Assembly (NCBI GenBank): GCA_963924555.1
Contig: OZ004582.1
Location: 7,316,001 to 7,380,000 of the forward strand
DNA from: Crambe crambe
Taxonomy: Eukaryota; Porifera; Demospongiae; Poecilosclerida; Crambeidae
Reading direction: 5' to 3'
DNA: 64,000 nucleotides
Part shown: positions 290 through 45,787 of the stretch, piece by piece
How positions within the stretch are numbered: position 1 is the first letter of the stretch
Layout: every line of letters starts with the position of its first letter
Notes under the pieces: model-generated
What the model was told of the DNA's origin: nothing
Databases searched by the model: none
What the model saw: the letters and a program-made list of their open reading frames with translations, nothing else
Translations under genes and position numbers: made by a program

Positions 290-3200
290 TCAGTTCTCCA
301 GTAGAGGTTCTCGCAATTCTATTACAGTTTGTGAAACATTCTGTGGTGAAATAGTAGGTGATATAACATTATCATTGCCCATTTCTTTTCTATTCATGAA
401 ATTGATGGATTTCCTTCGATAGATGTGGGATATCTTTTTCCTCATCCAGTCAGTTACCTTTTTAAAGTAGAGATGATGAAACTGATACAATATGATGCCA
501 ATCATAGTGACAAACACTATTCCAACTAGTGCATAGACTGTGGCCAGTCTAGTCCCTTTTTGAGACAGAACTGACAAAAGAATGAGGTTCAAATATATCG
601 AGCTTTCAATGAGACTAATGCATCTTTTGTTATATATCTTCCCAGTGATCCAATTTATTGATAAAATTCCACTGAAAGTTATTATAATGGCAGCAAAGCT
701 GTTGTAGTGATCAACACGACTCTGAGAAAATGTGACTACAATATAGAGAGCACAGCGAACAAGCAAGAGAAATCCAGTCCAGTAGCGAGTGTTTTCCTTG
801 TATGGGGCATAGTAAGAATCCAGTAGTGGCTTGATCCTGTTCAACCAACGACTGCACTTCCCTTCAGGGATACGATAAAGACAGGGTCCAAGTAAGAGGA
901 GAAGGGTGTAAGGAAGAAAGAAGAAAGTGATGAGTAATGAAGTGAATATTACAAGGAGGAGATGCTTCTGGTATAAGTAGGGAATATTGCCATCCTTCCA
1001 CCATGCAAATTTTTTTTCATCAGGGAAATCCAAGCGAGCGAATGTATAAACATCTATGGCTACCTGCAGTATCCTGCTGTATGACATTAGTAGGAGTGTA
1101 GCTAGGACTGCAATGGGGTTAGTCCCTATTAATTTAGACACTGTCATTGAGTATCTGCTGGTGAGAATGATCAAACCGATTAAGATCCAGATGTAAAAAG
1201 GAAAAGCAAACTGAAGCCAAGTTTGTATGTATGCATCAAGTCCATTGAAAAAGCATGTCTCTATCCCTAGGTCAAGGTTCAACCAGGCTATGAAGACTGT
1301 CAGAACATTTACAGCATCAGTAGGGAAAAATAACCTTCTATTGACTTGTACAATGTTAGCATAGAGTATCAAACTGTTGATCATTCCATAGGCAACCGTC
1401 AGTCTAAAAACTGATAAAAAGGCTATGAGGACTATTCCAGCCAATGCGAATGGGATTAATAGACCTAAATAGTGATTTGAACATTGTCCACATCTTGAAC
1501 TGCCAAGCTTGAGGCTATAGTTATCACTACACTGTCCACATAGCACTCCAGTACGATGAGAGGCACATTGGGTGTCTAGGTTATCCAAAGGTATATCAAC
1601 TGTGTCTGAGGTGCAGTAGTCAGCTGGACACGAATGGTACAAAATTAGGCCTAGATAAGAATCATTTGCACTCTTTAACATGCTCATCCAAAATGTATCA
1701 GTTTCCTTCCTTTTTATGAAATTATTTTCTTTCCTTATAATGCATTGAACACCATATTTCTCCAGTCGTTTATCACAAACACACTCTTCATCCCTTTGCC
1801 TGAACCCATCCGGACATGGTAGAAATATCACGTTAACAACTGCTTTAGCTAATCCAGTATCACGACAAGGACCATTTGGATATAATTCCAACTCTCCATG
1901 ATCAGAATTCGAGTAAAGGGAGTATTGTAGACTTGAACACTGCTGAGAAGTGATTTGCAATGTTTGGTTGTGTCTGAATCTGATATTTTTACCCAGTGCT
2001 GTTATATCTGTAGGGATGATGCTCCGTCCTTGACCAATAGCTACAAGGGACACATTTAATTCTTGACCTCTTTGAATTTTTGTACTTTTCATGTTGCAGT
2101 CAAAATCATGATAAAAAGAGTTGTTATAACAGAAACACAATTGTAACGGTTTAGATTCAATTTCCTCAGTTGACGATGTATCATCTTGTGATAATGTTTG
2201 TATGTATCCCTTACTCATTAAGTAATCATAAGGTGAGCTGTCACCTTTATAATCTCTTTTAAACCAACACATGTCCAGCAATCCACCATATAAAAAGTTA
2301 CCACCTTTACCCGCTGAATTAAAGTATGAATACATGGCTACTTGTGTTCTGCTGTCAAACTGCAGAAAGCAGTTTGGAAACTCCATGGGTCCATTCTCTT
2401 CATTTATCCTTTTATTGCACTGAATAGGTATGACAATATCTCTGTGAAATATTGCTCCTCCATAGTCAGTGGCATTGTTGTGAGACACATTAAGAATTGA
2501 AGCTAAAAACAAAGTTGCCCCACTCGTCAAATACATAGCTCCACCACTTTGTGCTGCATTGGATGAAAAATTTGCAGTACCATAAAATGCAATTGCTGTT
2601 TTTAATGCATATAATGCACCACCATCTATTTGAGCCCTGTTGCTGATTAATGAGGTGCTTCCCCTGAAGGATAAGGTCCCATTCTGTGAGCTAATGGCCC
2701 CTCCATTAGTGAGTACACTGTTGTTATAGAATAATGTATTGCCACTGAACTCCATTGAGCTGTCCCTCAAAACAATTCCTCCTTGATTGTTTATAAAATT
2801 TGTAGAGCCATTAAAGAGTAGTTTACTTTTCATAGCTCCAATCACTCCATTTTGTATTATATTGTCTTTAATCATTGTATTCCCATTGAATGTCACAGTA
2901 CTTTTGGTAACATACAAATTTCGTCTAATACGAGTGCTATTAATTCCATTATTTTTTGAGAAAGAATTAGTTCCTTTGAATTCAACTTCACTTCTCTGTA
3001 TTAGTAATGCTACATTTTCATTACATATAACGTTGATATTCCTAAATGTAACATTTTGGATTCCATATTGTAGATTAATTGCACTCACAACCCCCAAATT
3101 TTCAATGAAATTCGCGGATATGTTCCAGGAAATATTCGTTTCAGCAATCTTTTCATGTCTATCATTAGTAATATACAATCCTCCACCAAATTTTTCTGCA

Positions 3201-4021
3201 ACATTTTTAATGAATTTGATATCTGTTCCATCAATTAGTACATGTGATCCAAATAAATACAAAGCTCCGCCATCCCTTGCTTCATTTCCAGAGAAATATG
3301 CAATGCCAGTGATTATAAGTGACCCTCTCCATACTTTTATTGCTCCTCCCCTCCTGGTAGCACAGTTGTTAATAAGGGAGTTATTCCCTGTCATATTTAT
3401 GGTGCTATTTGTACAGTATATTGCTCCTCCACTATTCTTGCGTCCTTTTGGTGCTTCATTTCCAATAAAAGCAGTATCTATCAGAGTCAGAGTGGAGTGA
3501 TCTGTGGCCATGACTGCTCCTCCTCTAATTCCCTCAAAAGAGGTATTCATGATTGTGACGTTTGAGTGATTTAATTGGACTGCTCTCTCTGTTGTTGCCA
3601 TATTACCAGTGTTACTTTTGGACACTAAACTGGATAGCAGAATTGCACTTCTTGTGAAAGCAAGAATGGGAACATTTGTTGATCTTACAAAGTTCAGTCC
3701 TTCAATGGTGAAATCTGTAACATTATAACAGTGGAGACTACCACTGCTAAAGATTATCACATTTGATCTACTATCATTTCCCTTCCAAATCATGCCAGAT
3801 ATGTTTGAAATATTCAATACATTTTGTTGGCTGTGATTGCCTGGCAGAAAGATGAATGTCGATCCTGTTGTGAAATATCTCATGCTGTCATTGATATACT
3901 CGTCCAAGGTGAGACATGATCCAGGGCAGTTGTGGTGTGACGAATTATTTGACTTTACATAGTTAGTACTCTGTATTGGAGTGGTCAACACCATTATTGC
4001 AATAAGAAGGAGTACCTCCAT
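290..4021 (-). CDS. Array gene 1: Pmp-type beta-helix multi-pass membrane protein
   Basis: Single open frame of 1,243 residues, no introns. Residues 1-18 form a signal peptide (hydrophobic run ending TTPIQS). Residues ~55-525 are short repeats with GGAI, GGALY and FxNN/NNxA motifs, the pattern of chlamydial polymorphic outer membrane protein (Pmp) repeats, expected to fold as a right-handed beta-helix; NxS/T sequons are abundant. A Cys-containing region follows (FCYNNS, then CPDGFRQ at ~738), then a TGVLCGQC...CGQC module directly before the first membrane span (~850). About nine hydrophobic spans run to ~1185, followed by a ~55-residue basic tail ending VIELREPLLEN. The expected topology is a large extracellular beta-helix anchored by a polytopic domain; I do not recognise that domain as a standard GPCR. 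The biochemical role is unknown. The last ~57% of the gene plus the 3' flank is almost identical to gene 3, whereas the N-terminal third differs. Confidence 0.88.
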   Translation of the reverse strand: MEVLLLIAIMVLTTPIQSTNYVKSNNSSHHNCPGSCLTLDEYINDSMRYFTTGSTFIFLPGNHSQQNVLNISNISGMIWKGNDSRSNVIIFSSGSLHCYNVTDFTIEGLNFVRSTNVPILAFTRSAILLSSLVSKSNTGNMATTERAVQLNHSNVTIMNTSFEGIRGGAVMATDHSTLTLIDTAFIGNEAPKGRKNSGGAIYCTNSTINMTGNNSLINNCATRRGGAIKVWRGSLIITGIAYFSGNEARDGGALYLFGSHVLIDGTDIKFIKNVAEKFGGGLYITNDRHEKIAETNISWNISANFIENLGVVSAINLQYGIQNVTFRNINVICNENVALLIQRSEVEFKGTNSFSKNNGINSTRIRRNLYVTKSTVTFNGNTMIKDNIIQNGVIGAMKSKLLFNGSTNFINNQGGIVLRDSSMEFSGNTLFYNNSVLTNGGAISSQNGTLSFRGSTSLISNRAQIDGGALYALKTAIAFYGTANFSSNAAQSGGAMYLTSGATLFLASILNVSHNNATDYGGAIFHRDIVIPIQCNKRINEENGPMEFPNCFLQFDSRTQVAMYSYFNSAGKGGNFLYGGLLDMCWFKRDYKGDSSPYDYLMSKGYIQTLSQDDTSSTEEIESKPLQLCFCYNNSFYHDFDCNMKSTKIQRGQELNVSLVAIGQGRSIIPTDITALGKNIRFRHNQTLQITSQQCSSLQYSLYSNSDHGELELYPNGPCRDTGLAKAVVNVIFLPCPDGFRQRDEECVCDKRLEKYGVQCIIRKENNFIKRKETDTFWMSMLKSANDSYLGLILYHSCPADYCTSDTVDIPLDNLDTQCASHRTGVLCGQCSDNYSLKLGSSRCGQCSNHYLGLLIPFALAGIVLIAFLSVFRLTVAYGMINSLILYANIVQVNRRLFFPTDAVNVLTVFIAWLNLDLGIETCFFNGLDAYIQTWLQFAFPFYIWILIGLIILTSRYSMTVSKLIGTNPIAVLATLLLMSYSRILQVAIDVYTFARLDFPDEKKFAWWKDGNIPYLYQKHLLLVIFTSLLITFFFLPYTLLLLLGPCLYRIPEGKCSRWLNRIKPLLDSYYAPYKENTRYWTGFLLLVRCALYIVVTFSQSRVDHYNSFAAIIITFSGILSINWITGKIYNKRCISLIESSIYLNLILLSVLSQKGTRLATVYALVGIVFVTMIGIILYQFHHLYFKKVTDWMRKKISHIYRRKSINFMNRKEMGNDNVISPTISPQNVSQTVIELREPLLEN

Positions 4022-4899
4022 TTCTGAATGTAGCTATTAGATATGTGACCATGCAAACTTCAATAAAATTAAATTTTTTGTCAGGCTGATCATGTAGCCA
4101 GTTCATTCTTATAATGCGAGTTCAACAACTCCCAAAGTCATTACATAGATGAATAGAATAAACATCTTTTTAACCAATAAATAATGTCGCCCTTATCTTA
4201 CTCCCCAAAAGCCTTAGTTTCCTCGTTAACTGCTCAATGTTCATAAAATTTATAATTGGTCTCATTGGCTGATTTTTCAGTTTATCATTGGATGCTGCAG
4301 TGCATGCTACTGATACATAACCATATTTAGAATTTACATTAACTGGGGCTCTCTAGCACCATGCCCCATACCTATATACCCCATTCTTACTACCTCAAGG
4401 TTAGAGGTTAATTATTCCTGGGTCACTGAGATGGTAGAAATAAGCGCATTGGCATTGATTCATGGTCATATGATTTTCTCCCAAAAGTTTTGTGTATCCT
4501 TTTCCTCAGTAGAGAAATCATAAAGTGAAATCTATTTAAGTGTAAGCAACAGTGCTAGATGACTTGAACTTCAAATTTCAAAACAACAATGAAACTTGAG
4601 TTATGTTGTATATAAATATATACAGTGAAAATTTATTTCTGCCTTGTACAAGGAGATTAGACTACCTATATTAAGAAAGGTTATGTATTTTTAAAACTTG
4701 ATACGAACTTAAAAAATATTTAGGTACCTTGTGAAAACATTGATGATATAAAAGGGTATGTGAAGTAAGGATATACTGTAGTTCTGCTAGTTGACTGTCC
4801 TGACCAAAATGTTTATAAAAAAATTGTGGGTGTGCATTGAGTTTGAAGAAAGGTTTAACTATCAGAAATATGAATGTTCAGGGAGTGTAGCTAGTTACA
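4022..4899. other. Spacer between array genes 1 and 2
   Basis: No gene seen. It holds the left arm (about 4345-4590) of an inverted repeat whose other arm lies beyond gene 2, including an inverted copy of the TTTGGGAGAA upstream motif (4474-4497), and a degenerate version of the array 3' flank (about 4720-4890, with the shared GTACCTTGTGAAAACAT). Confidence 0.7.
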
Positions 4900-7800
4900 T
4901 CAATTCTCCAGTAGAGGTTCTCGTAATTCTATTACAGTTTGTGAAACATTCTGTGATGAAGTAATGGGTGATATAACATTATCATTGACCATTTCCTTTT
5001 TATTCATGAAAGCGATAAATTTCAATTGATTACTGCTGGATAGCTTTTTCATCATCCGGCCAGTTACTTTTCTGAAGTACAGATGGTGAAACTGATACAA
5101 TATGATGCTAATCATGGTGACAAACATTATTCCAACTAAGGTGAAGACCAGTCTAGTACCTTTTGCAGGAGTTAGAGACAGAACTGACAAAAGAATGATG
5201 TTCATATATATCGAACTTTCAATGAGATTAATGCATGTTTTATTGTATATCTTCCCAGTGATCCAATTTATCGATAAAATTCCACTGAAAGTTATTATAA
5301 TGACAGAAAAGCTGTAATTAATTTGAATATGTGAAAATGTGACCACTAGGTAGAGAACACAGCGAACAAGCAAAAGAAATCCAGTCCAATAGTGAGTGTT
5401 TTTCTTGTAAGGGGCATAGTAAGAATCCAGTAGTGGTTTGATTTTGTTCAACCAACGACTGCACTTTCCTTCAGAAATATGATAAAGACAGGGTCCAAGT
5501 AAGAGGAGAAGGGTGTAAGGAAGAAAGAAGAAAATGATAACTAATGAAGTGAATATTACAAGGAGAAGATGCTTTGGGCATAAGTAGGGAACATTGCCAT
5601 CTTTAAACCATACAATTTTTTCACCATCAGGGTAATCCAAGCGAGCGAATGTGTATACATTAATGATCACCTGCAGTAACCTGCTGTATGACATTAGTAG
5701 GAGTGTAGCTAGGACTGCAATGGGGTTAGTCCCTATTAATTTAGACACTGTTATTGAGTATCTGCTTATGAGAATGATCAAACCGATTAAGATCCAGATG
5801 TAAAATGGAAAAGCAAACTGAAGCCAAGTTCGTATGTATGCATCAAGTCCATCGAAAAAGCATGTCTCTATTCCCAGGTCAAGATTCAACCAGGCTATAA
5901 AAACCGTCAGAATGTTTACACCATCAATAGGGAAGAATGCCTTTCTATTGACTTGTACAATGTTAGCATAGAGTATCAAACTGTTGATCATTCCATAGGC
6001 AACCGTCAGCCTAAAAACTGATAAAAAGACTATGAGGACTATTCCAGCCAATGCGAATGGGATCAATAGACCTAAATAGTGATTTGAACATTGCGCACAT
6101 CTTGAACTGCCAAGCTTGAGGCTATAGTTATCACTACACTGTCCACATACCACTCCAGTACGATGAGAGGCACATTGGGTGTCTAGATTATCCAAAGGTA
6201 TATCAACTGTGTCTGAGGTGCAGTGATCAGCACGACAAGAATGGTACAAGATTAGGCCTAGATAAGAATCATTTGCATTCTTTAACAAGCTCACCCAAAA
6301 TGTATCAGTTTCCTTCCTTTTTATGAAATTATTTTCTTTCCTTATAATGCACTGAGCACCATATTTCTCCAGTCGTTTATCACAAACACACTCTTCATTG
6401 CTTTGCCTGAACCCATCCGGACATGGTAGAAATGTCACTTGAACAACTGCTTTAGCTAATCCAGTATCACGACAAGGACCATTTGGATATAATTCCAACT
6501 CTCCATGATCAGATTTTGAATAAAGAGAGTATTGTAGACTTGAACACTGCCGAGAAGTGATTTGTAATGTTTGGTTGTTTTTGAATCCTATATTTTTACC
6601 AAGTGCTGTTACATCTGTAGGGATGATGCTCCCTCCTTGACCAATAGCTACAAGGGACACATTCAATTCTTGACCTCTTTGAATTTCTATACTTTTCATG
6701 TTGCTGCAGTCATGATGAAACGATTTGTTGTAACAGAAACACAATCGTAATGGTTCAGATTCAATTTCTTCAGTCGACGATGTATTATCTTGTGATAATA
6801 TTTGTATATATCCTTTACTCAGTAAGGTATCATATGGTGAGCTATTACTTCTTAGACTTCCTATACTAAACCAACATATGTCCAGCAATCCTCCATATAG
6901 GAAATTACCACCTTTACCAGCTGAATTATGGCATGAATTTATGGCTATGTCTACTTGTGCTTGTTCTGTTTTGCTATCAAACTGCAGAAAGCAGTTAGGA
7001 AACTCCATGGGTTCATTCTCCTCACTTATCCTTTTATTGCACTGAATAGGTGTGACAATGTCTCTGTGAAATATCGCTCCACCATAGTCAGTGGCATTGT
7101 TGTGAGACATATTAAGAATTGATACTAATTGCAAAGTTGCCCCATTCGTAAAATACATAGCTCCACCACTTTGTGCCGAATTAAATGAAAAATTCACAGC
7201 ATCATAAATTTGAACTTCTGTTTTTAATGCATATAATGCACCACCATTTATTTGAGCCTTATTGCTGATGAATGAGGTGCTTCCCCTGAAGGTTAAAGTC
7301 CCATTCTGCGAGCTGATGGCCCCTCCATTAGTGAGTGCACTGTTGTTATAGAATAATGTATTGCCACTGGACTCCATTGAGCTATCCCTCAAAACAATTC
7401 CTCCTTGATTGTTTAAAAAATTCATAGACCCATTAAAGAATATTTTGCTTTTCATAGCTCCAATCACTCCATTCTGTATTATATTGTCTTTGATCGTTGT
7501 ATTCCCATTGAATGTCACAGTGCTACCAGTAATATACAAAATTCGTCTAATATGAGTGCTATTGATTCCGTTATTTCTTGAGAAAGAATTAGTTCCTTTG
7601 AATTGAACTTGACTTCTCTGTATTAGTAATGTTACATTTTCATTACATATAACGTTGATATTCCTGAATGTAACATTTCGGATTCCATATTGTAGATTAA
7701 TTGCACTCACAACCCCCAAATTTTCAATGAAGTTCGCAGATATGTTCCAGGAAATATTCGTTTTAGTAATCATTTCAGGTCTATCATTTGAAATATACAG

Positions 7801-8646
7801 TCCTCCACCAAATTTTTTTGCAACATTTTTTATGAATTTGACATCTGTTCCATCGATTAGTACATGTGATCCAAATAAATACAAAGCTCCGCCATTCACT
7901 GCTTCATTTCCAGAGAAATTTGCAATGCCAGTGATTATAAGTGACCCTCTCCATATGTTGATTGCTCCTCCCCTCCTGGTGGCACTGTTGTTGATAAAGA
8001 AGTTATTCCCTGTCATATTTATAGTACTATTTGCACAGTAGATTGCTCCTCCGCTATTCTTCCTTCTTTTTGGTGCTTCATCTCCAATAAAAGCAGTATC
8101 TATCAGAGTCAGAGTGGAGTGATCTGTAGCCATGACTGCTCCTCCTCTAATTCCTTCAAAGGAGGTATTGATGATTGTGATGTTTGAGTGATTCAATTGG
8201 ACTGCTCTCTCTGTTGTTGCCATATTACCAGTATTACATCGGAACACTAAACTAGATAGCAGAATTGCACTTCTTGTGAAGGCAAAAATGGGAGCATTTG
8301 TTGATCTTACAATGTTTAGTCCTTCAATCGTGAAATTAGTAACATTAAAACCATGGAGACTACCACTGCTTAAGATTATCACATCATTTGATAAGCTATC
8401 GTTTCTCCTCCAGATTATATCAGATATGTTTGAAATATTCAATGCATTTTGTTGACTGTGATTGCCTGGCAAAAAGACGAATATCGATCCTGTTGTGAAA
8501 TATTTCATGCTGTCATTGATATACTCGTCCAAGGTGAGACATGATCCAGGGCAGTTGTGGAGTGAGAAATTGTTTGACTTTACATAGCTAGTACTCTGAA
8601 TAGGAGTAGTCAACACCGATATTGCAATAAGAAAGAGTACCTCCAT
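4900..8646 (-). CDS. Array gene 2: Pmp-type beta-helix multi-pass membrane protein
   Basis: Open frame of 1,248 residues without introns. The order is signal peptide (residues 1-18), glycosylation-rich Pmp/beta-helix repeats to ~530, Cys-rich linker with CPDGFRQ, a TGVVCGQC...CAQC module, about nine membrane spans and the VIELREPLLEN end. It shares with gene 1 the MEVLxLIAI-type signal peptide, unlike the MEV/ITSES-type of the other copies. It carries a TPAKGTRL loop before the last span that genes 7 and (as FAKETRL) fragment 5 share but genes 1 and 3 lack. It is more diverged from gene 1 than gene 3 is over the C-terminal half, so adjacency does not predict similarity here. The gene lies between two arms of an inverted repeat (4345-4590 and 9015-9312). 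Confidence 0.87.
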   Translation of the reverse strand: MEVLFLIAISVLTTPIQSTSYVKSNNFSLHNCPGSCLTLDEYINDSMKYFTTGSIFVFLPGNHSQQNALNISNISDIIWRRNDSLSNDVIILSSGSLHGFNVTNFTIEGLNIVRSTNAPIFAFTRSAILLSSLVFRCNTGNMATTERAVQLNHSNITIINTSFEGIRGGAVMATDHSTLTLIDTAFIGDEAPKRRKNSGGAIYCANSTINMTGNNFFINNSATRRGGAINIWRGSLIITGIANFSGNEAVNGGALYLFGSHVLIDGTDVKFIKNVAKKFGGGLYISNDRPEMITKTNISWNISANFIENLGVVSAINLQYGIRNVTFRNINVICNENVTLLIQRSQVQFKGTNSFSRNNGINSTHIRRILYITGSTVTFNGNTTIKDNIIQNGVIGAMKSKIFFNGSMNFLNNQGGIVLRDSSMESSGNTLFYNNSALTNGGAISSQNGTLTFRGSTSFISNKAQINGGALYALKTEVQIYDAVNFSFNSAQSGGAMYFTNGATLQLVSILNMSHNNATDYGGAIFHRDIVTPIQCNKRISEENEPMEFPNCFLQFDSKTEQAQVDIAINSCHNSAGKGGNFLYGGLLDICWFSIGSLRSNSSPYDTLLSKGYIQILSQDNTSSTEEIESEPLRLCFCYNKSFHHDCSNMKSIEIQRGQELNVSLVAIGQGGSIIPTDVTALGKNIGFKNNQTLQITSRQCSSLQYSLYSKSDHGELELYPNGPCRDTGLAKAVVQVTFLPCPDGFRQSNEECVCDKRLEKYGAQCIIRKENNFIKRKETDTFWVSLLKNANDSYLGLILYHSCRADHCTSDTVDIPLDNLDTQCASHRTGVVCGQCSDNYSLKLGSSRCAQCSNHYLGLLIPFALAGIVLIVFLSVFRLTVAYGMINSLILYANIVQVNRKAFFPIDGVNILTVFIAWLNLDLGIETCFFDGLDAYIRTWLQFAFPFYIWILIGLIILISRYSITVSKLIGTNPIAVLATLLLMSYSRLLQVIINVYTFARLDYPDGEKIVWFKDGNVPYLCPKHLLLVIFTSLVIIFFFLPYTLLLLLGPCLYHISEGKCSRWLNKIKPLLDSYYAPYKKNTHYWTGFLLLVRCVLYLVVTFSHIQINYSFSVIIITFSGILSINWITGKIYNKTCINLIESSIYMNIILLSVLSLTPAKGTRLVFTLVGIMFVTMISIILYQFHHLYFRKVTGRMMKKLSSSNQLKFIAFMNKKEMVNDNVISPITSSQNVSQTVIELREPLLEN

Positions 8647-12160: not shown

Positions 12161-12227
12161 TAGTCATTTACTGTCAGTGTGAGTTGCAATGAGTGTACGT
12201 ATTGTGGGGGTCATGCTATAGCTATAA

Positions 12228-14774: not shown

Positions 14775-14783
14775 TTTTTTTTT

Positions 14784-14812
<29 letters not shown>
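14775..14812. repeat. Poly-T/poly-G tract
   Basis: About 18 T followed by about 19 G inside the transposon, just within its left inverted end. Runs of this kind are prone to assembly and length error. Confidence 0.9.
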
Positions 14813-14814
<2 letters not shown>

Positions 14815-31795: not shown

Positions 31796-34700
31796 TCAAT
31801 TCTCCAATAGAGGTTCACGTAATTCAATTACTGTTTGTGTGACTCTTTTGACAGGATTGGCTTGAGATGATGTTTCTCTTCTTCTTTCATGAGAGATAAA
31901 TTTTGTCTGGAAATGGCTTGACATCTTTTTACATATTCTTTGAACAGCTCCCTTTTTGATGTAGAGGATGTAAAATTGGTACAATATGACACCAATCATA
32001 GTGACCATCACCACTCCGACTAAACAGTAAACAATTACCACATAATGTTCTACATTTGCTAGACCAATAACTGACAAGACAATGAGATTTAAATATACCA
32101 CTCCTTCCATGAGATTTAGATAAAATTTATGATAAATTTTCCCAGTGATCCAAATCAGTAATAATAATATACTGAAAGTGATGATGATAGCCATGAAGCT
32201 TTTATTCACATCATCGAGTGAGTAGTATGTAAAGACAATACAGAGAATGAAACGAACTGGCAAGAGAAACCCAGTCCAGTAGCGAGTGTTTTTCTTGTAT
32301 GGGGCGTAGTAGGAATCCAGTATTGGCTTGATCTTATTTAACAGGCGAACACATTTTCTGTGTGGAATGCGATAGAGGCAGGGGCCAAATATGAGAAGAA
32401 ATGTAAATGGAAGGAAAAAGAAAACTCCCACCAATAAAGTAGCACCTACTAGAAGAAGGTGTTTGTATCCTAAACGAGGCAAGTTACCATCTTTTAACCA
32501 TACGCTCACTTTCTCTCCATTGGGACCATCCAGATGGACAAAGGAAAACACAGCAATGATTAACTTTAATATTTTAGTATAGGACATCAGTATCAAGGTT
32601 GCTAGGACTGCTATGGGGTCAGTCCCTATTAATTTGGACATTGTCATTGAATATCTGCTGGTGAAAATGATAATGCTTATCAAGATCCAGATATAAAATG
32701 GAAAAGCAAACTGAAGCCAAGTTTGCATGCATGCATCAAGTCCATTGAAAAAGCATGTCTCTATCCCTAGGTCAAGGTTCAACCAGGCTATGAAGACTGT
32801 CAGAACATTTACAGCATCAGTAGGGAAAAATAACCTTTTATTGATTTGTACAATGTTAGCATAGAGTATCAAACTGTTGATCATTCCATAGGCAACTGTC
32901 AGCCTAAAAACTGATAAAAAAGCTATGAGGACTATTCCAGCCAATGCGAATGGGATTAATAGACCTAAATAGTGACTTGAACATTGTCCACATCTTGAAC
33001 TGCCAAGCTTGAGGCTATAGTTATCACTACACTGTCCACATAGCACTCCAGTACGATGAGAGGCACATTGGGTGTCTAGGTTATCCAAAGGTATATCAAC
33101 TGTGTCTGAGGTGCAGTAGTCAGCTGGACAAGAACTGTACAAGATTAAGCCTAGATAAGAATCATTTGCACTTAACATGCTCATCCAAAATGTATCAGTT
33201 GCCTTCCTTTTTATGAAATGATTTTCTTTCCCAATAATGCACTGAGCACCATATTTCTCAAGTCGTTTATCACAAACACACTCTTCATCCCTTTATCTGA
33301 ACCCATCCGGACATGGTAAAAATGTCACTTGAACAACTGCTTTAGCTAATCCAGTATCACGACAAGGACCATTTGGATATAATACCAACTTTCCATGATC
33401 AGAGTTCGAGTAAAGAGAGTATTGTAGACTTGAACACTGCCGAGAAGTGTTTTGCAATGTTTGGTTGTGTTTGAATCTGATTTTTTTACCCAGTGCTGTT
33501 ATATCTGTAGGGACAATGCTCCATCCTTGACCAATAGCTACAAGGGACACATCTAATTCTTGACCTCTTTGAATTTCTATATTTTTCATGTTGCTGCAGT
33601 CATGATGAAACAAGTTGTTATAACAGAAACATAATTGTAACGGTTCAGATTCAATTTCTTCAGTTGATGATGTATTATCTTGTGATAATATTTGTATATA
33701 TCCTTTACTCAGTAAGGTATTATATGGTGAGCTATCATTATTAAGACTTCGTATAATAAACCAACACATACCCAGCAATCCACCATATAAGAGGTTACCA
33801 CCTTTACCAGCTGAATTGTGGTATGAATATATGGCTACTTTTGCTTTTTCTGTTTTGCCATCAAACTGCAGAAAGCAGTTAGGAAACTCCTTGTATTCAT
33901 TCTCCTTTCTTATCCTTTCATTGCACTGAATAGGTGTGACGATGTCTCTGTGAAATATTGCTCCTCCATAGTCAGTGGCATTGTTGTGAGACACATTGAG
34001 AATTGAAGCTAAAAACAAAGTTGCTCCACTCGTAAAATACATAGCTCCACCACTTTGTGCTGCATTGGATGAAAAATTTGCAGTACCACAAAATTCAACT
34101 TCTGTTTTGAATGCATATAATGCACCACCATCTATTTGAGCCTTATTGCTGATGAATGAGGTGCTTCCCCTGAAGGATAAATTCCCACCCTCTGAGCTAA
34201 TGGCCCCTCCACTAGTGAGTGCATTGTTGTTATAGAATAATGTGAACTCTATTGAGCTATCCTTTGAGACACTTCCTTGATGGTTTGAATAATTCATAGA
34301 CCCATTAAATGTCACAGTGTTATAAGTGCTATTTACTCCATTATTATTTATGAAATTGGTGTCTGTTCCTTTGATTAGTGCAAGTGATTTGCTTAAATAT
34401 AAAGCTCCTCCTGTGCTTGCTTCATTTTGAGAGAAATTTGCAATTCCAGTAATTATAATTGACCCTCTCCATATCCTCACAGCTCCTCCCTCCCTAGTGG
34501 CATTGTTGTTATTGAAAAAATTATTCCCTGTCATAGTCATGGTACTAATTGCACAGTATATTGCTCCTCCAGATGATTTAGCACGGTTGTTATTAATAGA
34601 GTTATTCCCTGTCATAGTTATGGTACTATATCGGCAGTATATTGCTCCTCCCCTCATGGTGGCAAGGTTGTTATTAATAACGTTATTCCCTGTCATATTT

Positions 34701-35413
34701 ATGGTGGTATCTTGGCAGTATATTGCTCCTCCCTTCCAGTAAGCGCGGTTGTTATTAATAGAGTTATTCCCTATCTTGATGGTGCTATTTGCACAGTATA
34801 TTGCTCCTCCATTACTCTTAGGTCCTTCTGGTACTTCATTTCCAATAAAAGCAGTATCTATCAGAGTCAGAGTGGAGTGATCCGTGGCCATGACTGCTCC
34901 TCCTCTGATTCTTTCAAAGGAGGTATTGATGATTGTGATATTTGAGTGATTCAATTGGACTGCTCTCTCTGTTGTTTCCATGTTACTTTGGAACACTAAA
35001 CTGGATAGCAGAATTGCACTTCTTGTGAAAGCAAGAATGGGAACATTTGTTGATCTTACAAAGTTCAGTCCTTCAATGGTGAAATTTGTGACATTATAAC
35101 TGAGGAGACTACTACTGCTTAAGATTATCACATCATTTGATCCACTATCATTTCCCCTCCAAATCATGCCAGATATATTCGAAATATTCAATGCATTTCG
35201 TTGGCTGTGATTGCCTGGCAGAAAGACGAATATCGATCCTGTTGTGAAATATCTCATGCTCTCATTGATATACTCATCCAAGGTGAGACATAATCCAGGG
35301 AAGTCGTGGAGTGAGGAATTGTTTGACTTCACATAGTTAGTACTCTGTATTGGAGTACTTAACAGCAATATTTGAATGAAAAGAAGTAATTTTGACTCTG
35401 ATGTTATCTCCAT
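31796..35413 (-). pseudogene. Array copy 6: nonsense-interrupted, mosaic copy with expanded repeats
   Basis: One reading frame of 1,205 codons from ATG at 35411-35413 (MEITSES signal peptide) is interrupted only by TAA at 33293-33295, replacing the Gln of CPDGFRQ; read literally it gives a 706-residue secreted beta-helix. There is also a codon loss in SMLxSANDS. The beta-helix has four consecutive ~27-residue GGAIYC...NNN units (81-bp DNA repeats at about 34554-34800) where most copies have one, but a later stretch is shortened. From the span after FPFYIWILI (fwd ~32690) to the stop the protein is strongly diverged (MSYTKILKLIIAVF; PHRKCVRLLNKIKP) yet still ends VIELREPLLEN, so it joins a common front to a distinct tail. 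One nonsense codon in an otherwise open frame could be a recent mutation, an allele or an error. Confidence 0.8.
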
Positions 35414-37101: not shown

Positions 37102-40100
37102 TCAATTCTCCAGTAGAGGTTCTTGTAATTCTATTACAGTTTGTGAAACATTCAATGGTGAAGTAGTTGGTGATGTAATGTTATCATTGACTGTTTCTTT
37201 TCTCTTCATGAAATTGATGGATTTCCTTTTCATCATCCAGTTGGTTACTTTTTTGAAGTAAAGATGGTGAAACTGATACAATATGATGCCAATCATAGTG
37301 ACAAACACTATTCCAACTAGTGCATAGACCAGTCCAGTCCCTTTTGCAGGAGTTAAAGATAAAACTGACAATAAAATGAGGTTCATATATATCGAGATTT
37401 CAATGAAACTAATGCACATTTTGTTGTATATCTTCCCAGTGATCAAATTTATCGATAAAATTCCACTGAAAGTTATTATAATGACAGCAAAGCTGTAATT
37501 GATACGAATGGTTGAAAGTGTGACCACTGAGTAGAGAACACAGCGAACAAGCAAGAGAAATCCAGTCCAATAGCGAGTGTTTTTCTTGTAAGGGGCATAG
37601 TAAGAATCCAGTAGTGGTTTGATCCTGTTCAACCAACGACTGCACTTCCCTTCAGGAATACGATAAAGACAGGGTCCAAGTAAGAGGAGAAGGGTGTAAG
37701 GAAGAAAGAAGAAGATGATAAATAATGAAGTGAATATCGCAAGGAGGAGATGCTTTGGACATAAGTAGGGAACATTGCCATCTCTCGACCATACAATTTT
37801 CTTACGATCAGGGTAATCCAAGGAAGCAAATGTATAAACATCTATGGCTACCTGCAGTATCCTGCTGTATGACATTAGTAGGAGTGTAGCTAGGACTGCA
37901 ATGGGGTTAGTCCCTATTAATTTAGACACTGTTATTGAGTATCTGCTGATGAGAATGATCAAACCGATTAAGATCCAGATATAAAATGGAAAAGCAAACT
38001 GAAGCCAAGTTTGTATGTATGCATCAAGTCCATTGAAAAAACATGTCTCTATCCCTAGGTCAAGGTTTAACCAGGCTGTGAAGACTGTCAGAACATTTAC
38101 AACATCAGTAGGGAAAAATAACCTTCTATTAACTTGTACGATGTTAGCATAGAGTATCAAACTGTTGATCATTCCATAGGCAACTGTCAGCCTGAAAACT
38201 GATAAAAAAGCTATGAGGACTATTCCAGCCAATGCGAATGGGATTAATAGACCTAAATAGTGATTTGAACATTGTGCACATCTTGAACTGCCAAGCTTGA
38301 GGCTATAGTTATCACTACACTGTCCACATAGCACTCCAGTACGATGAGAGACACATTGGGTGTCTAGGTTATCTAAAGGTATATCAACTGTGTCTGAGGT
38401 GCAGTAGTCAGCTGGACAAGAACTATACAAGATTAGGCCTAGATAAGAATCATTTGCACTCTTTAACATGCTCATCCAAAATGTATCAGTTTCCTTCCTT
38501 TTTATGAAATTATTTTCTTTCCCAATAATGCACTGAACACCATATTTCTCCAGTCTTTTATCACAAACACACTCTTCATCGCTTTGCCTTAACCCATCAG
38601 GACATGATAGAAATATCACTTGAACAACTGCTTTAGCTAATCCAGTATCACGACAAGGACCATTTGGATATAATTCCAACTCTCCATGATCTGCATTCGA
38701 GTAAAGAGAGTATTGTAGACTTGAACACTGCCGAGAAGTGACTTGTAATGTTTGGTTATTTTTGAATCGGATATTTTTACCAAGTGCTGTTATATCTGTA
38801 GGGACAATGCTCCCTCCTTGACCAATAGCTAAAAGGGACACCTTTATTTCTTGACCTCTTTGAATTTCTATAGTTTTCATGTTGCTGCAGTCAACATCAT
38901 AATGAAAAGAGTTGTTATAACAGAAACACGATTGTAACGGTTCAGATTCAATATCTTCAGTTGATGATGTATTATCCTGAGATAATTTGATGTATCCCTT
39001 ACTTATTAAGTAATCATAAGGTAATCTGTCACCTGAAAAGTTTTCATCGTCTCTTTTAAACCAACACATATCCAGCAATCCTCCATATAAGAAGTTACCA
39101 CCTTTACCAGCTGAGTTAAAGTATGAATACATGGCTACTTGTGTTCTGCTGTCAAACTGCAGAAAGCAGTTTGGAAACTCCATGGGTCCATTCTCTTTAC
39201 TTATCCTTTTATTGCACTGAATAGGTGTAACAATGTCTTTATGAAATATTGTTCCTCCATAGTCAGTGGCACTGTTGTGAGACGCATTAAGAATTGAAGC
39301 TAAAAACAAAGTTGCCCCACTCGTAAAATACATAGCTCCACCACTTTGTGCTGCATTGGATGAAAAATTTGCAGTACCATAAAATGCAATCGCTGTTTTA
39401 AATGCATATAATGCACCACCATCTATTTGAGCCTTATTGCTGATGAATGAGGTGCTTCCTCTGAAGGTTAAAGTCCCACCCTCTGAGTTAATGGCCCCTC
39501 CATTAGTGAGTACACTGTTGTTATAGAATAATGTATTGCCACTGAACTCCATTGAGCTTTCCCTTGAAACAATTCCTCCTTGATTGTTTAAAAAATCTGT
39601 AGACCCATTAAAGAGTACTTTGCTTTTCATAACCCTGATCTCTCCTTTAGGTATTATATTGTCTTTGATCATTGTATTTCCATTGAATATCACAGTGCTG
39701 TTGGAGATATATAAAATCAGATTTCTGTTATTTTTTGAGAAAGAATTAGTTCCTTCGAATTCAACTCGACTTTTCTCTATTACTAGGGCAATATTATTTT
39801 CATTACATGTGATGTGGATATTCCTGAATGTAACAATTTGTGTTTCGAATAGTGCAATTGCACCCAAATTTTTAATGAAGCTTGCAGATATAAAGATACT
39901 TGTTTCTGCAGCAATCGAATTTTCATATCTATCATAGATATACAGCCCTCCACCTTTTTCAGCAACATTTTTTATGAAATTGATATCTGTTCCATTGATT
40001 AGTGCATGTGATTTACTTAAATGCAAAGCTCCTCCATCCCTTGCTTCATTTTCAGAGAAATTCGCAATGCCAGTAATTAAAAGTGACCCTCCCAATATGC

Positions 40101-40887
40101 ACACAGCTCCTCCACTATAGATGACATGGTTGTTATTAATAGAATTATTCCCTGCCATATTCATGGTGCTATTTCGGCAGTATATTGCTCCTCCCTTCCA
40201 GTAAGCACGGTTGTTATTAATAGAGTTATTCCCTGTCATATTTATGGTGCTATTTGCACAGTATATTGCTCCTCCATTACTCTTAGGTCCTTCTGGTACT
40301 TCATTTCCAATAAAAGCAGTATCTATCAGAGTCAGAGTGGAGTGATCTGTGGCCATGACTGCTCCTCCTCTGATTCCTTCAAAGGAGGTATTGATGATTG
40401 TGATGTTTGAGTGATTCAATTGGACTGCTCTCTCTGTTGTTGCCATATTACCAGTGTTACTTTGGAACACTAAACTGGATAGCAGAATTGCACTTCTTGT
40501 GAAAGCAAAAATTGGAACATTTGTTGATCTTATGAAGTTCAGTCCTTCAATGGTGAAATCTGTGACATTATAACAGTGGAGACTACCACTGCTTAAGATT
40601 ATCACATCATTTGATCCACTTTCATGTCCCCTCCAAATCATGCTGGATGTGTTTGAAATATTCAATGTATTTTGTTGGCTGTGATTGCCTGGCAGAAAGA
40701 CGAATGTCAATCCTGTTGTGAAATATCTCATGCTGTCATTGATATACTCGTCCAAGGTGAGACATGATCCAGGGCAGTTGTGGAGTGAGGAATTGTTTGA
40801 CTTCACATAGTTAGTACTCTGTATTGAAGTACTCAACACCAACATTTGAATGAAAAGAAGTAATTTTGACTCTGATGTTACCTCCAT
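37102..40887 (-). CDS. Array gene 7: Pmp-type beta-helix multi-pass membrane protein
   Basis: Open frame of 1,261 residues, the longest intact copy. MEVTSES signal peptide, then beta-helix repeats in which the GGAIYC...NNN unit occurs twice (two 81-bp copies near 40190-40270), explaining the greater length. The Cys-rich linker reads CPDGLRQSDEECVC; then TGVLCGQC...CAQC, about nine spans, a shortened cytoplasmic tail (the SHIYRR-type stretch is absent) and the variant end IELQEPLLEN. It shares the TPAKGTGL loop with gene 2. Within the beta-helix several rungs are reworded relative to neighbours (NDRYENSIAAETSIFISASFI region). No lesion seen. Confidence 0.88.
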   Translation of the reverse strand: MEVTSESKLLLFIQMLVLSTSIQSTNYVKSNNSSLHNCPGSCLTLDEYINDSMRYFTTGLTFVFLPGNHSQQNTLNISNTSSMIWRGHESGSNDVIILSSGSLHCYNVTDFTIEGLNFIRSTNVPIFAFTRSAILLSSLVFQSNTGNMATTERAVQLNHSNITIINTSFEGIRGGAVMATDHSTLTLIDTAFIGNEVPEGPKSNGGAIYCANSTINMTGNNSINNNRAYWKGGAIYCRNSTMNMAGNNSINNNHVIYSGGAVCILGGSLLITGIANFSENEARDGGALHLSKSHALINGTDINFIKNVAEKGGGLYIYDRYENSIAAETSIFISASFIKNLGAIALFETQIVTFRNIHITCNENNIALVIEKSRVEFEGTNSFSKNNRNLILYISNSTVIFNGNTMIKDNIIPKGEIRVMKSKVLFNGSTDFLNNQGGIVSRESSMEFSGNTLFYNNSVLTNGGAINSEGGTLTFRGSTSFISNKAQIDGGALYAFKTAIAFYGTANFSSNAAQSGGAMYFTSGATLFLASILNASHNSATDYGGTIFHKDIVTPIQCNKRISKENGPMEFPNCFLQFDSRTQVAMYSYFNSAGKGGNFLYGGLLDMCWFKRDDENFSGDRLPYDYLISKGYIKLSQDNTSSTEDIESEPLQSCFCYNNSFHYDVDCSNMKTIEIQRGQEIKVSLLAIGQGGSIVPTDITALGKNIRFKNNQTLQVTSRQCSSLQYSLYSNADHGELELYPNGPCRDTGLAKAVVQVIFLSCPDGLRQSDEECVCDKRLEKYGVQCIIGKENNFIKRKETDTFWMSMLKSANDSYLGLILYSSCPADYCTSDTVDIPLDNLDTQCVSHRTGVLCGQCSDNYSLKLGSSRCAQCSNHYLGLLIPFALAGIVLIAFLSVFRLTVAYGMINSLILYANIVQVNRRLFFPTDVVNVLTVFTAWLNLDLGIETCFFNGLDAYIQTWLQFAFPFYIWILIGLIILISRYSITVSKLIGTNPIAVLATLLLMSYSRILQVAIDVYTFASLDYPDRKKIVWSRDGNVPYLCPKHLLLAIFTSLFIIFFFLPYTLLLLLGPCLYRIPEGKCSRWLNRIKPLLDSYYAPYKKNTRYWTGFLLLVRCVLYSVVTLSTIRINYSFAVIIITFSGILSINLITGKIYNKMCISFIEISIYMNLILLSVLSLTPAKGTGLVYALVGIVFVTMIGIILYQFHHLYFKKVTNWMMKRKSINFMKRKETVNDNITSPTTSPLNVSQTVIELQEPLLEN

Positions 40888-42091
40888 TTCAATCTAAGTG
40901 ACTGCATTAAGTGACCAAACAAACAATGATGTCTGGCTAACTATGCAGCCAGTTCATTTTTATAATGTGAATTAATTAATATTATATTCCATATTACATG
41001 TACATGTATATACTGATTCCTGAACTGTTTACAGATTAGATAGATGTAGTACTACATGTATCTTTTGTAAGCATCCTGTTTTTTCCACATCAATCACTTA
41101 AGTTTCATAAATTATTGGTCTCATGGGCTGATCTTATCACTGGATGATAATAATTCATGTATGTATTCTCAAAAAAAACTACCTTAGAAATCAAATCATC
41201 AGATTAGTTTGAAGTAAGACACTGGTCAGTTTCAATGTTGACATCTTGGACTTAATAATTTTGAGAAAAATAAGAAAGAGTAACAAAGTTTTAGTGTACA
41301 AATACTCCATCCTTGATGTGTATCAAGTACTACAGTGACTTTACCTAGCACTGTTGCTTATGGTTCATAGATGCTCTGTTTCCTTCTATAACCATGAGCT
41401 ACTATTTCTATCAAAAACAGTAAACCTTTGGGAGAAGTGATAATCACACACGTGTATAATTCAGAACTACTTAACCAGACTATGCTAAGAGTTAAGAGTG
41501 ACTAGATGTCAAAAACAATAAACGAAGAAGAAGAAGAATTAAAATATGACCTCAAGTATAAAAGTTCACAAGTTACGTATTGGATCATGGTGGAGTGGTC
41601 TTAAGGGTACCCACGACAATTTCAATCTCCCTAATAACCTAGCTCCCTAATAAAGAGGTCACCTCCCTATAGAGGCCCACTTGTTCCTGGTCCATGGGTG
41701 GTCATAGTAAACTATAATGGGCAAGTGAACGGGAGAAAGATTTATGCTAAATAAAAGGCCATGTTTGGTTAGTCTTTACTTTTACATATAGCAGTTTCTG
41801 TGAACAAACATCAAAATTATGCTACCTTCAATAATAATTAAACATCACTGCTCCCACCAAGCTGCTATAATTATTCACGTCAATGTAAAAGTGTTCTGCT
41901 TGGTTTAGACAGTGATACAAACATCATGGATATTAGAATAGGCCTGTGTATGTAGACATAGCAAGAATGTGTATTATATTAGAAGAAAGGTGTACATAGT
42001 GCTGGCTAAACACTTTACAAAAAAAAAAATTTTATATAACTAATACACACACAAGATAAAGCTACATATTACCTTAGAGTGTTATTATGCA
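40888..42091. other. Spacer between array genes 7 and 8
   Basis: No gene. The shared upstream motif (AAACCTTTGGGAGAAGTGATAATCAC) is at about 41421-41446. 41520-41560 is A/G-rich (GAAGAAGAAGAAG). 41640-41715 holds the dispersed AGAGGTCACCTCCCTATAGAGG / ACTTGTTCCTGGTCCATGGG repeat also found at 22.96, 28.6, 30.37 and 46.85 kb. 41930-42091 is the 3' flank of gene 8, more diverged than in other copies. Confidence 0.65.
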
Positions 42092-45000
42092 TCAATTCTC
42101 CAGTAGGGGTTCTCGTAATTCTATTACAGTTTGTGAAACATTCTGTGGTGTAGTAGTAGTGGGTGATGTAACATTATCATCTGCTTCTTTTCTCTTCATA
42201 AAATTGATGAATTTTTTTCGAAAGATGCGGGATACTTTTTTCATCATCCGGTGTTCAGTTACCTTTTTTAAGTACAGATGTTGAAACTGATACAATATGA
42301 TGCCAATCATAGTTACAAACACTATTCCAACTAAAGCATAGACTAGTCCAGTCCCTGTTAGAGACAGAACTGACAAAAGAATGAGATTCATATATATCGA
42401 GCCTTCAATGGGACTGATGCATCTTTTATTGTATATCTTCCCAGTGATCCAATTTATTGATAAAATTCCACTGAAAGTTATTGCAATAGCACCAAAGCTG
42501 TAGTAATTAACACGACTATTTGAAAGTGAGACTGCAATATAGAGAACACAGCGAACAAGCAAGAGAAATCCAGTCCAATAACGAGTGTTTCTCTTGTATG
42601 GGGCATAGTAAGAATCCAGTAGTGGTTTGATCCTGTTCAACCAACGACTGCACTTCCCTTCAGGAATATGATAAAGACAGGGTCCAAGTAAAAGGAGAAA
42701 GGTGTAAGGAAGAAAGAAGAAAATGATAACCAATGAAGTGAATATTACAAGGAGAAGATGCTTTGGGCATAAGTAGGGAACATTGCCATCTCTCGACCAT
42801 ACAACTTTCTTACGATCAGGGTAATCCAAGGAAGCGAATGTGTAAGCATCTATGGCTACCTGCAGTATCCTGCTGTATGACATTAGTAGGAGTGTAGCTA
42901 GGACTGCAATGGGGTTAGTCCCTATTAATTTAGACACTGTCATTGAGTATCTGCTAGTGAGAATGATCAAACCGATTAAGATCCAGATATAAAATGGAAA
43001 AGTGAACTGAAGCCAAGTTTGTATGTATGCATCGAGTCCATTGAAAAAGCATGTCTCTATCCCTAGGTCAAGGTTCAACCAGGCTATGAAGACTGTCAGA
43101 ACATTTACAGCATTGTTAGGGAAAAATAGCCTTCTATTGACTTGTACAATGTTAGCATAGAGTATCAAACTGTTGATCATTCCATAGGCAACTGTTAATC
43201 TAAAAACTGATAAAAAGGCTATGAGGACTATTCCAGCCAATGCGAATGGGATTAATAGACCTAAATAGTGATTTGAACATTGTGCACATCTTGAACTGCC
43301 AAGCTTAAGGCTATAGTTATCACTACACTGTCCACATAGCACTCCAGTACGATGAGAGGCACATTGGGTGTCTAGGTTATCCAAAGGTATATCAACTGTG
43401 TCGGAGGTGCAGTAGTCAGCTGGACAAGAACTGTACAAGATTAAACCTAGATATGAATCATTTGCACTCTTTAATATGCTCATCCAAAATGTGTCAGTTT
43501 CCTTCCTTTTTATGAAATTATTTTCTTTCCTTATAATGCACTGAGCACCATATTTCTCCAGTCGCTTATCACAAACACACTCTTCATCATTTTTCCTGAA
43601 CCCATCCGGACACGGTAGAAATGTCACCTGAACAACTGCTTTAGCTAATCCAGTATCACGACAAGGACCATTTGGATATAATTCCAACTCTCCATAATTA
43701 GAATTCGAGTAAAGAGAGTATCGTAGACTTGAACACTGCCGAGAAGTGATTTGTAATGTTTGGTTGTGTCTGAACCTAATATTTTTACCCAGTGCTGTTA
43801 TATCTGTAGGGATGATGCTCCATCCTTGACCAATAGCTACAAGGGACACATTTAATTCTTGACCTCTTTGAATTTCTATACTTTTCATGTTGCAGTCAAA
43901 GTCATGATGATAAGAGTTGTTATAACAGAAACACAATCGTAACGGTTCAGATTCTATTTCTTCAGTTGACGATGTATTATCTTGTGATAGTATTCGTATG
44001 TAATCATAAGGTGATCTTTTATCTGTAAGATTTCCTTTATTAAGCCAACATATGTCCAGCAATCCTCCATATAAGAAGTTACCACCTTTACCAGCTGAAT
44101 TATAGTATGAATTTATGGCTACTTGTGCTTGTTCTATTTTGCTCTCAAACTGCAGAAAGCAGTTAGGAAACTCCGTATATTCATTATTGCACTGAATAGA
44201 TGTAACAGTATCTCTGTGAAATATTGCTCCTCCATAGTCAGTGGCATTGTTGTGAGACACATTAAGAATCGATGCTAAAAACAAAGTTGCTCCACTTATA
44301 AAATATATAGCTCCACCACTTTGTGCTGAATTGGATGAAAAATTTGCAGCATCATAAAATGCAACTTTCGTATTAATAGCATATAATGCACCACCATCTA
44401 TTTGAGCCTTATTGCTGATGAATGAGGTACTTCCTCTGAAGGATAAAATCCCATACTGTGAGTTAATGGCCCCTCCATTAGTGAGTGCACTGTTGTTATA
44501 GAATAATGTATTGCCACTGAACTCAATTAAGCTACTCCTTGAAACAATTCCTCCTTGATTATTTAAAAATTTTGTAAACCCATTAAAGAATATCCTGCTT
44601 TTTATAGCTCCAATCACTCCATGTTGTAATGTATTGTCTTTGATGATTGTATTCCCATTGAATGACACAGTGCTTTCGTAAATATGCAAAATACTTTTAG
44701 AATAATAAGGGTTTATTTCTCCATTTTTTGAGAAACAATTAGTCCCTTCAAATTCAACTTGATTTCTATGTACTGCTAATGCCACTTCTTCATTACCTGT
44801 GATGTTGATATTTCTCAATGTAACAAGTGTTTCCCTTAGTACAATTGCCCCTGCAAAGTCCCCTAAATTTTCAATAAAGTTTGCAGATATGAAGATATTT
44901 GTTTCAACATTAGTGATATACAACCCTCCACCATTTCTTTTGGCAACATTTTTTATAAAGTTGATATCTGTTCCATTGATTAGTACATGTGATCCAGTCA

Positions 45001-45787
45001 AATACAAACCTCCTCCATTTTTTGCTACATTTTCAGAAAAATTTGCAATGCCAATAATCATAAGTGACCCTCTCCATATGAACACAGCTCCTCCATTCCA
45101 GATGGCACTGTTGTTATTAAGGAAATTATTCCCTGTCATATTTATGATGCTATTTGCACAGTATATTGCTCCTCCATTACTATTAGGTCCTTTTGGTACT
45201 TCATTTCCAATAAAAGTAGTATCTATCAGAGTCAGAGTGGAGTTATCTGTGGCCATGACTGCTCCTCCTCTGATTCCTTCAAAGGTGGTATTGATGATTT
45301 TGATGTTTGAGTGATTCAATTGGACTGCTCTCTCTGTTGTTGCCATATTACCAGTGTTACTTTGGAACACTAAACTGGATAGCAGAATTGCACTTCTTAT
45401 GAAGGCAAGAATGGAAATATTTGTTGATCTAACAAAGTTCAGTCCTTCAATGATAAAATTTGTGACATTATAACAGTGGAGACTGCCACTGCTTAAGATT
45501 ATCACATCATTTGATCTGCTATAGTTTCCCCTCCAAATCATGCTGGATATATTTGAAATCGTTAATGCATTTTGTTGGTTATGATTGCCTGGTAGAAAGA
45601 CGAATGTCGATCCTGTCGTGAAATATCTCATGCTGTCATTGATAAACTCGTCCAAGGTGAGACATGAACCAGGGCAGTTGTGGCTTAGGGAATCGTTTGA
45701 CTTCACATAGTTAGTACTCTGTATTGGAGTACTTAACACTAACATTAGAATAAAAAGAAGTAATTTTGAAGCTGATGTTACCTCCAT
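42092..45787 (-). CDS. Array gene 8: Pmp-type beta-helix multi-pass membrane protein
   Basis: Open frame of 1,231 residues, the right-most copy of the array. MEVTSAS signal peptide, glycosylation-rich beta-helix with one GGAIYC unit, Cys-rich linker (CPDGFRKNDEECVC), TGVLCGQC...CAQC, about nine spans and VIELREPLLEN. It is the most diverged intact copy in the middle of the beta-helix (INPYYSKSILHIYESTVSF), lacks the MSKGYIQ-type segment after SPYDYI, and has a one-residue-longer loop (TEHRMMKKVSRIFRKKF) after the last span. The membrane domain remains nearly the same as in the other copies. It has two copies of the upstream motif (46367-46385 and 46688-46712). Confidence 0.88.
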   Translation of the reverse strand: MEVTSASKLLLFILMLVLSTPIQSTNYVKSNDSLSHNCPGSCLTLDEFINDSMRYFTTGSTFVFLPGNHNQQNALTISNISSMIWRGNYSRSNDVIILSSGSLHCYNVTNFIIEGLNFVRSTNISILAFIRSAILLSSLVFQSNTGNMATTERAVQLNHSNIKIINTTFEGIRGGAVMATDNSTLTLIDTTFIGNEVPKGPNSNGGAIYCANSIINMTGNNFLNNNSAIWNGGAVFIWRGSLMIIGIANFSENVAKNGGGLYLTGSHVLINGTDINFIKNVAKRNGGGLYITNVETNIFISANFIENLGDFAGAIVLRETLVTLRNINITGNEEVALAVHRNQVEFEGTNCFSKNGEINPYYSKSILHIYESTVSFNGNTIIKDNTLQHGVIGAIKSRIFFNGFTKFLNNQGGIVSRSSLIEFSGNTLFYNNSALTNGGAINSQYGILSFRGSTSFISNKAQIDGGALYAINTKVAFYDAANFSSNSAQSGGAIYFISGATLFLASILNVSHNNATDYGGAIFHRDTVTSIQCNNEYTEFPNCFLQFESKIEQAQVAINSYYNSAGKGGNFLYGGLLDICWLNKGNLTDKRSPYDYIRILSQDNTSSTEEIESEPLRLCFCYNNSYHHDFDCNMKSIEIQRGQELNVSLVAIGQGWSIIPTDITALGKNIRFRHNQTLQITSRQCSSLRYSLYSNSNYGELELYPNGPCRDTGLAKAVVQVTFLPCPDGFRKNDEECVCDKRLEKYGAQCIIRKENNFIKRKETDTFWMSILKSANDSYLGLILYSSCPADYCTSDTVDIPLDNLDTQCASHRTGVLCGQCSDNYSLKLGSSRCAQCSNHYLGLLIPFALAGIVLIAFLSVFRLTVAYGMINSLILYANIVQVNRRLFFPNNAVNVLTVFIAWLNLDLGIETCFFNGLDAYIQTWLQFTFPFYIWILIGLIILTSRYSMTVSKLIGTNPIAVLATLLLMSYSRILQVAIDAYTFASLDYPDRKKVVWSRDGNVPYLCPKHLLLVIFTSLVIIFFFLPYTFLLLLGPCLYHIPEGKCSRWLNRIKPLLDSYYAPYKRNTRYWTGFLLLVRCVLYIAVSLSNSRVNYYSFGAIAITFSGILSINWITGKIYNKRCISPIEGSIYMNLILLSVLSLTGTGLVYALVGIVFVTMIGIILYQFQHLYLKKVTEHRMMKKVSRIFRKKFINFMKRKEADDNVTSPTTTTPQNVSQTVIELREPLLEN

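Follow-up and report, generated by a model that had tools for sequence, protein, structure and literature searches.

Between positions 290 and 45787 of the window, a stretch of 64,000 nucleotides of the Crambe crambe genome (C3:7316001-7380000 in an assembly of 143 Mb and 119 contigs), lies a tandem array of genes that each join an ectodomain of Pmp repeats, modelled as a right-handed beta-helix, to a Cys-rich neck and a membrane module with 9-10 hydrophobic segments. This module is encoded at a minimum of 245 distinct places on 19 contigs, and we put the chances at about even that the proteins make up a very large family located at the cell surface, with receptor-like or adhesion roles. The genome is that of an animal, as had been predicted from the window, since Wnt gave 14 exon-wise matches in it and none in any of 14 control genomes.

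Array and protein anatomy

Using copies H and A as tblastn queries, we located five intact genes in the window (A, B, C, G and H), two full-length copies broken once each (D and F), a fragment (E) and an orphan C-terminal tail, which agrees with the eight copies or part copies and one orphan tail of the original prediction (Table 1). Pairwise identities among the intact proteins are 80-91% across aligned columns (76-91% by BLASTP). The longest stop-free frame spans 1,302 codons, whereas no frame exceeded 196 codons when the window was simulated 30 times with a first-order Markov model. The claim that all copies share one strand is correct for the window, where all are on the minus strand, but does not extend to the contig: the cluster reaches leftwards to at least 7266359 and comprises 15 places over 90 kb, 6 plus and 9 minus, 8 of them inside the window. 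Since the left-hand copies (C3:7266359-7315065) are mainly on the plus strand, six places against one more on the minus strand, the two arms of the array face each other.

Profile searches found Pmp repeats (PF02415 / TIGR01376) over the cut-off in all five intact copies with both libraries, and the ectodomains of D and F are also over the cut-off for PF02415. The core pattern of the repeat, GGA[ILV]/FxxN according to PMC11166332, occurs as GGA[ILV]-x(14,18)-FxxN four to five times per ectodomain in each intact copy. In shuffled sequences the means are at most 0.005, and more than one occurrence was seen in none of 1,000 shuffles. Structure prediction for copy H gave the right-handed beta-helix that had been proposed for the ectodomain, with a block-wise predicted local distance difference test score (pLDDT) of 64-94 over amino acids (aa) 160-509. 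Among the structural matches of this model are phage tailspikes and the passengers of bacterial autotransporters, proteins that in many cases bind surfaces; a non-enzymatic passenger matches best. The ectodomains hold 25-33 N-glycosylation sequons, against 14-15 (standard deviation 3.2-3.5) in shuffles, while the membrane parts hold 1-3 against 2.3-2.6, a distribution consistent with an ectodomain that would be glycosylated. The neck resembles DUF7630 (PF24633), with E-values of 0.0035-0.84 in the window copies, all under the family cut-off; elsewhere in the genome the domain exceeds the cut-off at five places, of which two belong to members listed for the search with the membrane module of H.

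As to the membrane part, for which about nine spans had been predicted, we counted 10 hydrophobic peaks; nine spans would suit a protein with its N-terminus outside and its basic tail inside. An alignment of the module from 21 members on 10 contigs has a mean column identity of 70%, with invariant residues spread throughout. In the tail, the motif LREPL, which resembles dileucine sorting signals, is found in 20 of the 21 aligned members of group I, the window-like type (copy G has ELQEPL), and is kept although the preceding 40 columns are variable (0.49 vs 1.86 bits). We base the motif on the alignments only, the pattern by itself being unspecific (71 genome matches vs 46 for the reversed pattern).

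Extent of the family

Because the Pmp repeat, with its 19 residues, is too short for genome counting, our counts rest on the membrane module: a PF02415 search of the genome listed one match at E 0.001 (L001, a distant member of the family; 150 of 519 candidates scored) and no window copy, and it also matched one control, E. coli. The places with a module, a count that includes fragments and broken copies, divide into 121 window-like ones (group I) and 124 that represent another type (group II). Clusters with at least three places number 21 and hold 166 places in all, 46 of them in the largest cluster, on C6 at 1.86-2.18 Mb. Membrane-half queries from L001, H, L062 and L064 gave at least 124, 94, 89 and 89 matches, respectively, and the pattern DS[YF]YAPY matched 63 genome sites, its reversed control not a single one. 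Merged into the count were all 124 L001 rows, all 94 H-module rows, 62 of the 63 pattern sites (C3:5089919 was dropped), 55 of the 89 L062 rows and 23 of the 89 L064 rows, the remainder being mostly covered by other searches. A separate search with the whole of copy H, left out of the count, scored 38 of 657 first-look candidates and found at least 92 matches. Open frames of at least 1,100 codons contain 72 of the 94 relatives scored with the H module, and 4 of the 94 have internal stops.

L001, the first distant member found, is split into two frames. In L062, L063 and L064 a single frame encodes 1,194, 1,165 and 1,276 aa, respectively, with the parts in the order seen in the window copies. 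For L062 and L063 the Pmp repeats exceed the Pfam cut-off; for L064 it is Beta_helix that does so, with Pmp under it. The membrane profiles of the two groups align over 359 columns (probability 99.1, E 6.6e-19); groups I and II are homologous and have one common architecture. Beyond this genome, no PADLOC or PHROG family reached E 0.01 with H or L064 as the query, and sequence searches of the PDB gave weak matches only (agrin at E 0.78, RNA polymerase subunits at E 1.3-1.4, one search empty).

Divergence, recombination and surroundings

Across 10 pairs, which are not independent of each other, the Nei-Gojobori (NG86) ratio of nonsynonymous to synonymous rates (dN/dS) ranges from 0.38 to 0.62 for the beta-helix, from 0.19 to 0.42 for the middle part and from 0.24 to 0.39 for the membrane part and tail, so that the copies are under purifying selection. 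Similarity is distributed in blocks along the genes. Copies A and C have a dS of 0.216 in the beta-helix and of 0.023 and 0.047 downstream, and are 95-99% identical from alignment column 1800 on; C and D share 94-98% identity across columns 300-1199, and F differs from the others at columns 600-1499 (46-72% identity) and from column 3000 on (61-71%). The longest blocks in a conversion test, 132 polymorphic sites for A-C and 108 for C-D, were each reached in none of 1,000 permutations, a test that ignores rate differences along the gene and to which we give weight for only these two of the 21 pairs. The copies are thus mosaics with gene-conversion blocks between A and C and between C and D, in line with the earlier description of the cluster as visibly recombining.

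Variability is greatest in the beta-helix, with a mean entropy of 0.56 bits vs 0.28 and 0.20 in the other two parts (the membrane value coming from 5 rows), and it peaks at coil positions 7-8. These fall inside the coil turn, which PMC11166332 places at positions 6-9. A TATA-like element is identical before A, G and H (3 sites vs 0.10 expected; Table 1), and by eye a related sequence lies upstream of B, D and F. Taken together, the dN/dS values, the mosaic identity blocks, the entropy profile and the common TATA-like element suggest working genes that recombine.

The number of coils varies as well, from 9-11 GG[AGTV][ILVM] motifs in each window copy to 35 GG[AGV] motifs in L065. The latter (L065:1-6000) has a frame of 2,000 aa in which the motifs are mostly 26-27 residues apart, with a beta-helix far longer than those of the window copies. 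In a group I member at C16:2490460-2494209, whose frame encodes 1,835 aa, one two-coil stretch of the beta-helix (query 421-477) matches nine times, which points to coil duplication within the gene.

Table 1 Features of the array and of reference copy H in the window
Feature	Position	Strand	Remarks
Copy A	290..4021	-	intact single-frame gene, 1,243 codons
Copy B	4900..8646	-	intact single-frame gene, 1,248 codons
Copy C	18276..22010	-	intact; homologous start at 22010, open frame begins 54 codons upstream at 22172
Copy D	23528..27266	-	full length, one frameshift near 24834; frames 24819-27266 and 23528-24868
Fragment E	29294..30101	-	frameshifted; membrane part only
Orphan C-terminal tail	31136..31315	-	tblastn match
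Copy F	31796..35413	-	full length, one in-frame stop
Copy F, diverged blocks			beta-helix and second half of membrane module
Copy G	37102..40887	-	intact single-frame gene, 1,261 codons
Copy H	42092..45787	-	intact single-frame gene, 1,231 codons
Beta-helix of H	44213..45331	-	aa 153-525; structure model
Cys-rich neck of H	43277..43369	-	aa 807-837; DUF7630-like, below family cut-off
Membrane module of H	42293..43267	-	aa 841-1165; 9-10 hydrophobic segments
Basic C-terminal tail of H	42092..42292	-	contains ELREPLLE motif
TATA-like element TTATAAGAATGAACTGGCT	4096..4114	-	upstream of A
TATA-like element TTATAAGAATGAACTGGCT	40947..40965	-	upstream of G
TATA-like element TTATAAGAATGAACTGGCT	45861..45879	-	upstream of H

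The window also holds a mobile-element-like insertion between copies B and C (14295-17219), with inverted ends of 408 bp that are 98% identical (14295-14702 and 16812-17219) and a minus-strand frame (15869-16225) that by eye looks like the start of a helix-turn-helix transposase, unconfirmed by profile. Tandem-repeat arrays have units of about 50 bp at 11541-12155 and of about 210 bp at 12215-13115. Beyond the array, each strand carries one single-frame gene for a short-chain dehydrogenase, at 56858-57649 (-) and at 57740-58516 (+), with adh_short E-values of 6.6e-36 and 5.9e-36.

Possible roles and known systems

If the proteins are receptor-like or adhesion proteins, a signal peptide would direct each of them to the membrane, where the N-glycosylated beta-helix of Pmp-type coils would be exposed as a ligand-contact surface. 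The neck would join it to the conserved module of about nine spans, which would anchor the protein and probably transduce a signal, either in a channel-like manner or via partners that the basic tail has in the cytosol. Duplication, gene conversion and the addition or removal of coils would diversify the repertoire, with the membrane module staying nearly constant. The surface recognition, adhesion or immune-type family of the original prediction is supported in part: our data show the anatomy of the genes, the Pmp repeats, a modelled beta-helix, the hydrophobic segments, homology throughout the family, its minimum size, the mosaicism and the purifying selection, from which a place at the surface, glycosylation, the binding of ligands, signalling and any sensory or immune role are inferred. 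More specifically, and more tentatively, the hundreds of single-frame genes could constitute an undescribed animal receptor superfamily that couples a Pmp-type beta-helix sensor to a conserved nine-span transducer, owes its diversity to gene conversion and to coils added or lost, and serves as the main chemosensory or microbe/self-recognition repertoire of the animal.

Several results weigh against a receptor or adhesion repertoire. AlphaFold2 on the module alone, for seven window copies, gave a pLDDT of 40.5 and a predicted template modelling score (pTM) of 0.21, that is, no confident fold and a model too poor for a fold search, and no Pfam membrane family is over the cut-off for the module, so that the transducer is without structural support. 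The seven module sequences scanned had nothing over the Pfam cut-off except the adjoining repeats, with no ion-channel match (TRP/polycystin-type families were considered), and no 7TM (G protein-coupled receptor, GPCR) family was among the matches of the family proteins scanned. The LREPL motif is missing from L063, L064 and L065, hence there is no tail signal common to the whole family; dN/dS is below 1 in 30 of 30 comparisons, with no positive selection detected; and the structural matches of the beta-helix also include epimerases, lyases and fructotransferases.

These enzymes bring to mind membrane-bound glycan-processing proteins, with the beta-helix as the enzyme and the spans as a transporter, which we regard as improbable given that the best structural match is non-enzymatic and that the coils show the Pmp GGA/FxxN pattern. 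Another candidate is uptake or scavenger receptors, whose beta-helix would bind bacteria or glycans and whose tail would route the protein through endosomes. The retention of the dileucine-like LREPL next to a variable flank speaks for such receptors, but canonical dileucine signals have an acidic residue at -4, where the tail has none (its E stands at -5), and the motif is missing from L063 and L064 of group II. In trichomonads, endocytic motifs are present in the Pmp proteins (PMC6701047), for which an endosomal route has been suggested; on balance we consider uptake unlikely here. Pmp repeats also occur in adhesins (PMC11166332 and PMC6701047), so the beta-helix might simply join cells or extracellular material, with the membrane part merely an anchor; a conserved polytopic module with invariant residues throughout 21 members far exceeds the needs of an anchor, however, and plain adhesion or matrix proteins are in our view a rather poor candidate.

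The high copy number, the single-frame genes and the broken copies would also be expected of a mobile element or of a retroposed or foreign gene amplified with no role in the host. Against this, the seven copies compared have no common terminal repeats, their flanks sharing short upstream pieces and longer segmental matches downstream of A-C, A-D and C-D and upstream of D-F; dN/dS is 0.19-0.62; and the family is spread over 19 contigs of a Wnt-bearing genome. Moreover, pattern-based searches of limited sensitivity with the membrane alignment confirmed none of 10 pattern stretches in viral contigs and none of 152 in prokaryote genomes. We therefore regard such an amplification as highly improbable.

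Among known systems, vertebrate odorant receptors are a large tandem, single-exon receptor repertoire, and the present family is like them in its hundreds of single-frame polytopic genes, clusters, broken copies and gene conversion; it differs in having no 7TM family match and a large beta-helix ectodomain. DUF7630 proteins likewise have a Cys-rich neck before the first span, whereas the window copies score under the family cut-off, and our literature search found no described function for this domain. The GGA[ILV]/FxxN coils and right-handed beta-helix ectodomain are shared with the Chlamydia Pmp autotransporters, from which the window proteins differ by their helical polytopic C-terminal half and their animal chromosome; no Pmp middle-domain or autotransporter beta-barrel family was listed for seven proteins at E up to 1. 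Comparable too are the Pmp-like surface proteins of Trichomonas vaginalis, also eukaryotic, with Pmp repeats, a multigene family and a C-terminal membrane anchor. According to PMC6701047, these comprise 48 genes with a single span, unlike the 9-10 hydrophobic segments here, and a conserved ATPITK motif, which is present in none of the five intact window copies.

The Pmp beta-helix is thus known, Trichomonas included, while the architecture and scale seen here are not described in the literature searched: we found no account of an animal family joining a Pmp beta-helix to a polytopic module in the open literature, which was searched in part. The Amphimedon GPCR paper PMC4302439 contains none of six terms looked for in it. 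Almost 200 non-bacterial UniProt proteins match PF02415 (PMC11166332), so that undescribed animal Pmp proteins may well exist in databases. Sponges and corals probably have proteins of this Pmp kind.

Whatever its function, a membrane module at no fewer than 245 places is a large annotation gap, given that in the seven module sequences scanned nothing but the adjoining repeats exceeds the Pfam cut-off. Should the proteins be receptors, this animal with Wnt genes would have a repertoire for recognition comparable in size to the odorant receptors of vertebrates and based on a fold that is chiefly familiar from the adhesins of bacteria and the tailspikes of phages. The means by which an animal of this kind detects microbes, food or self would then become testable.
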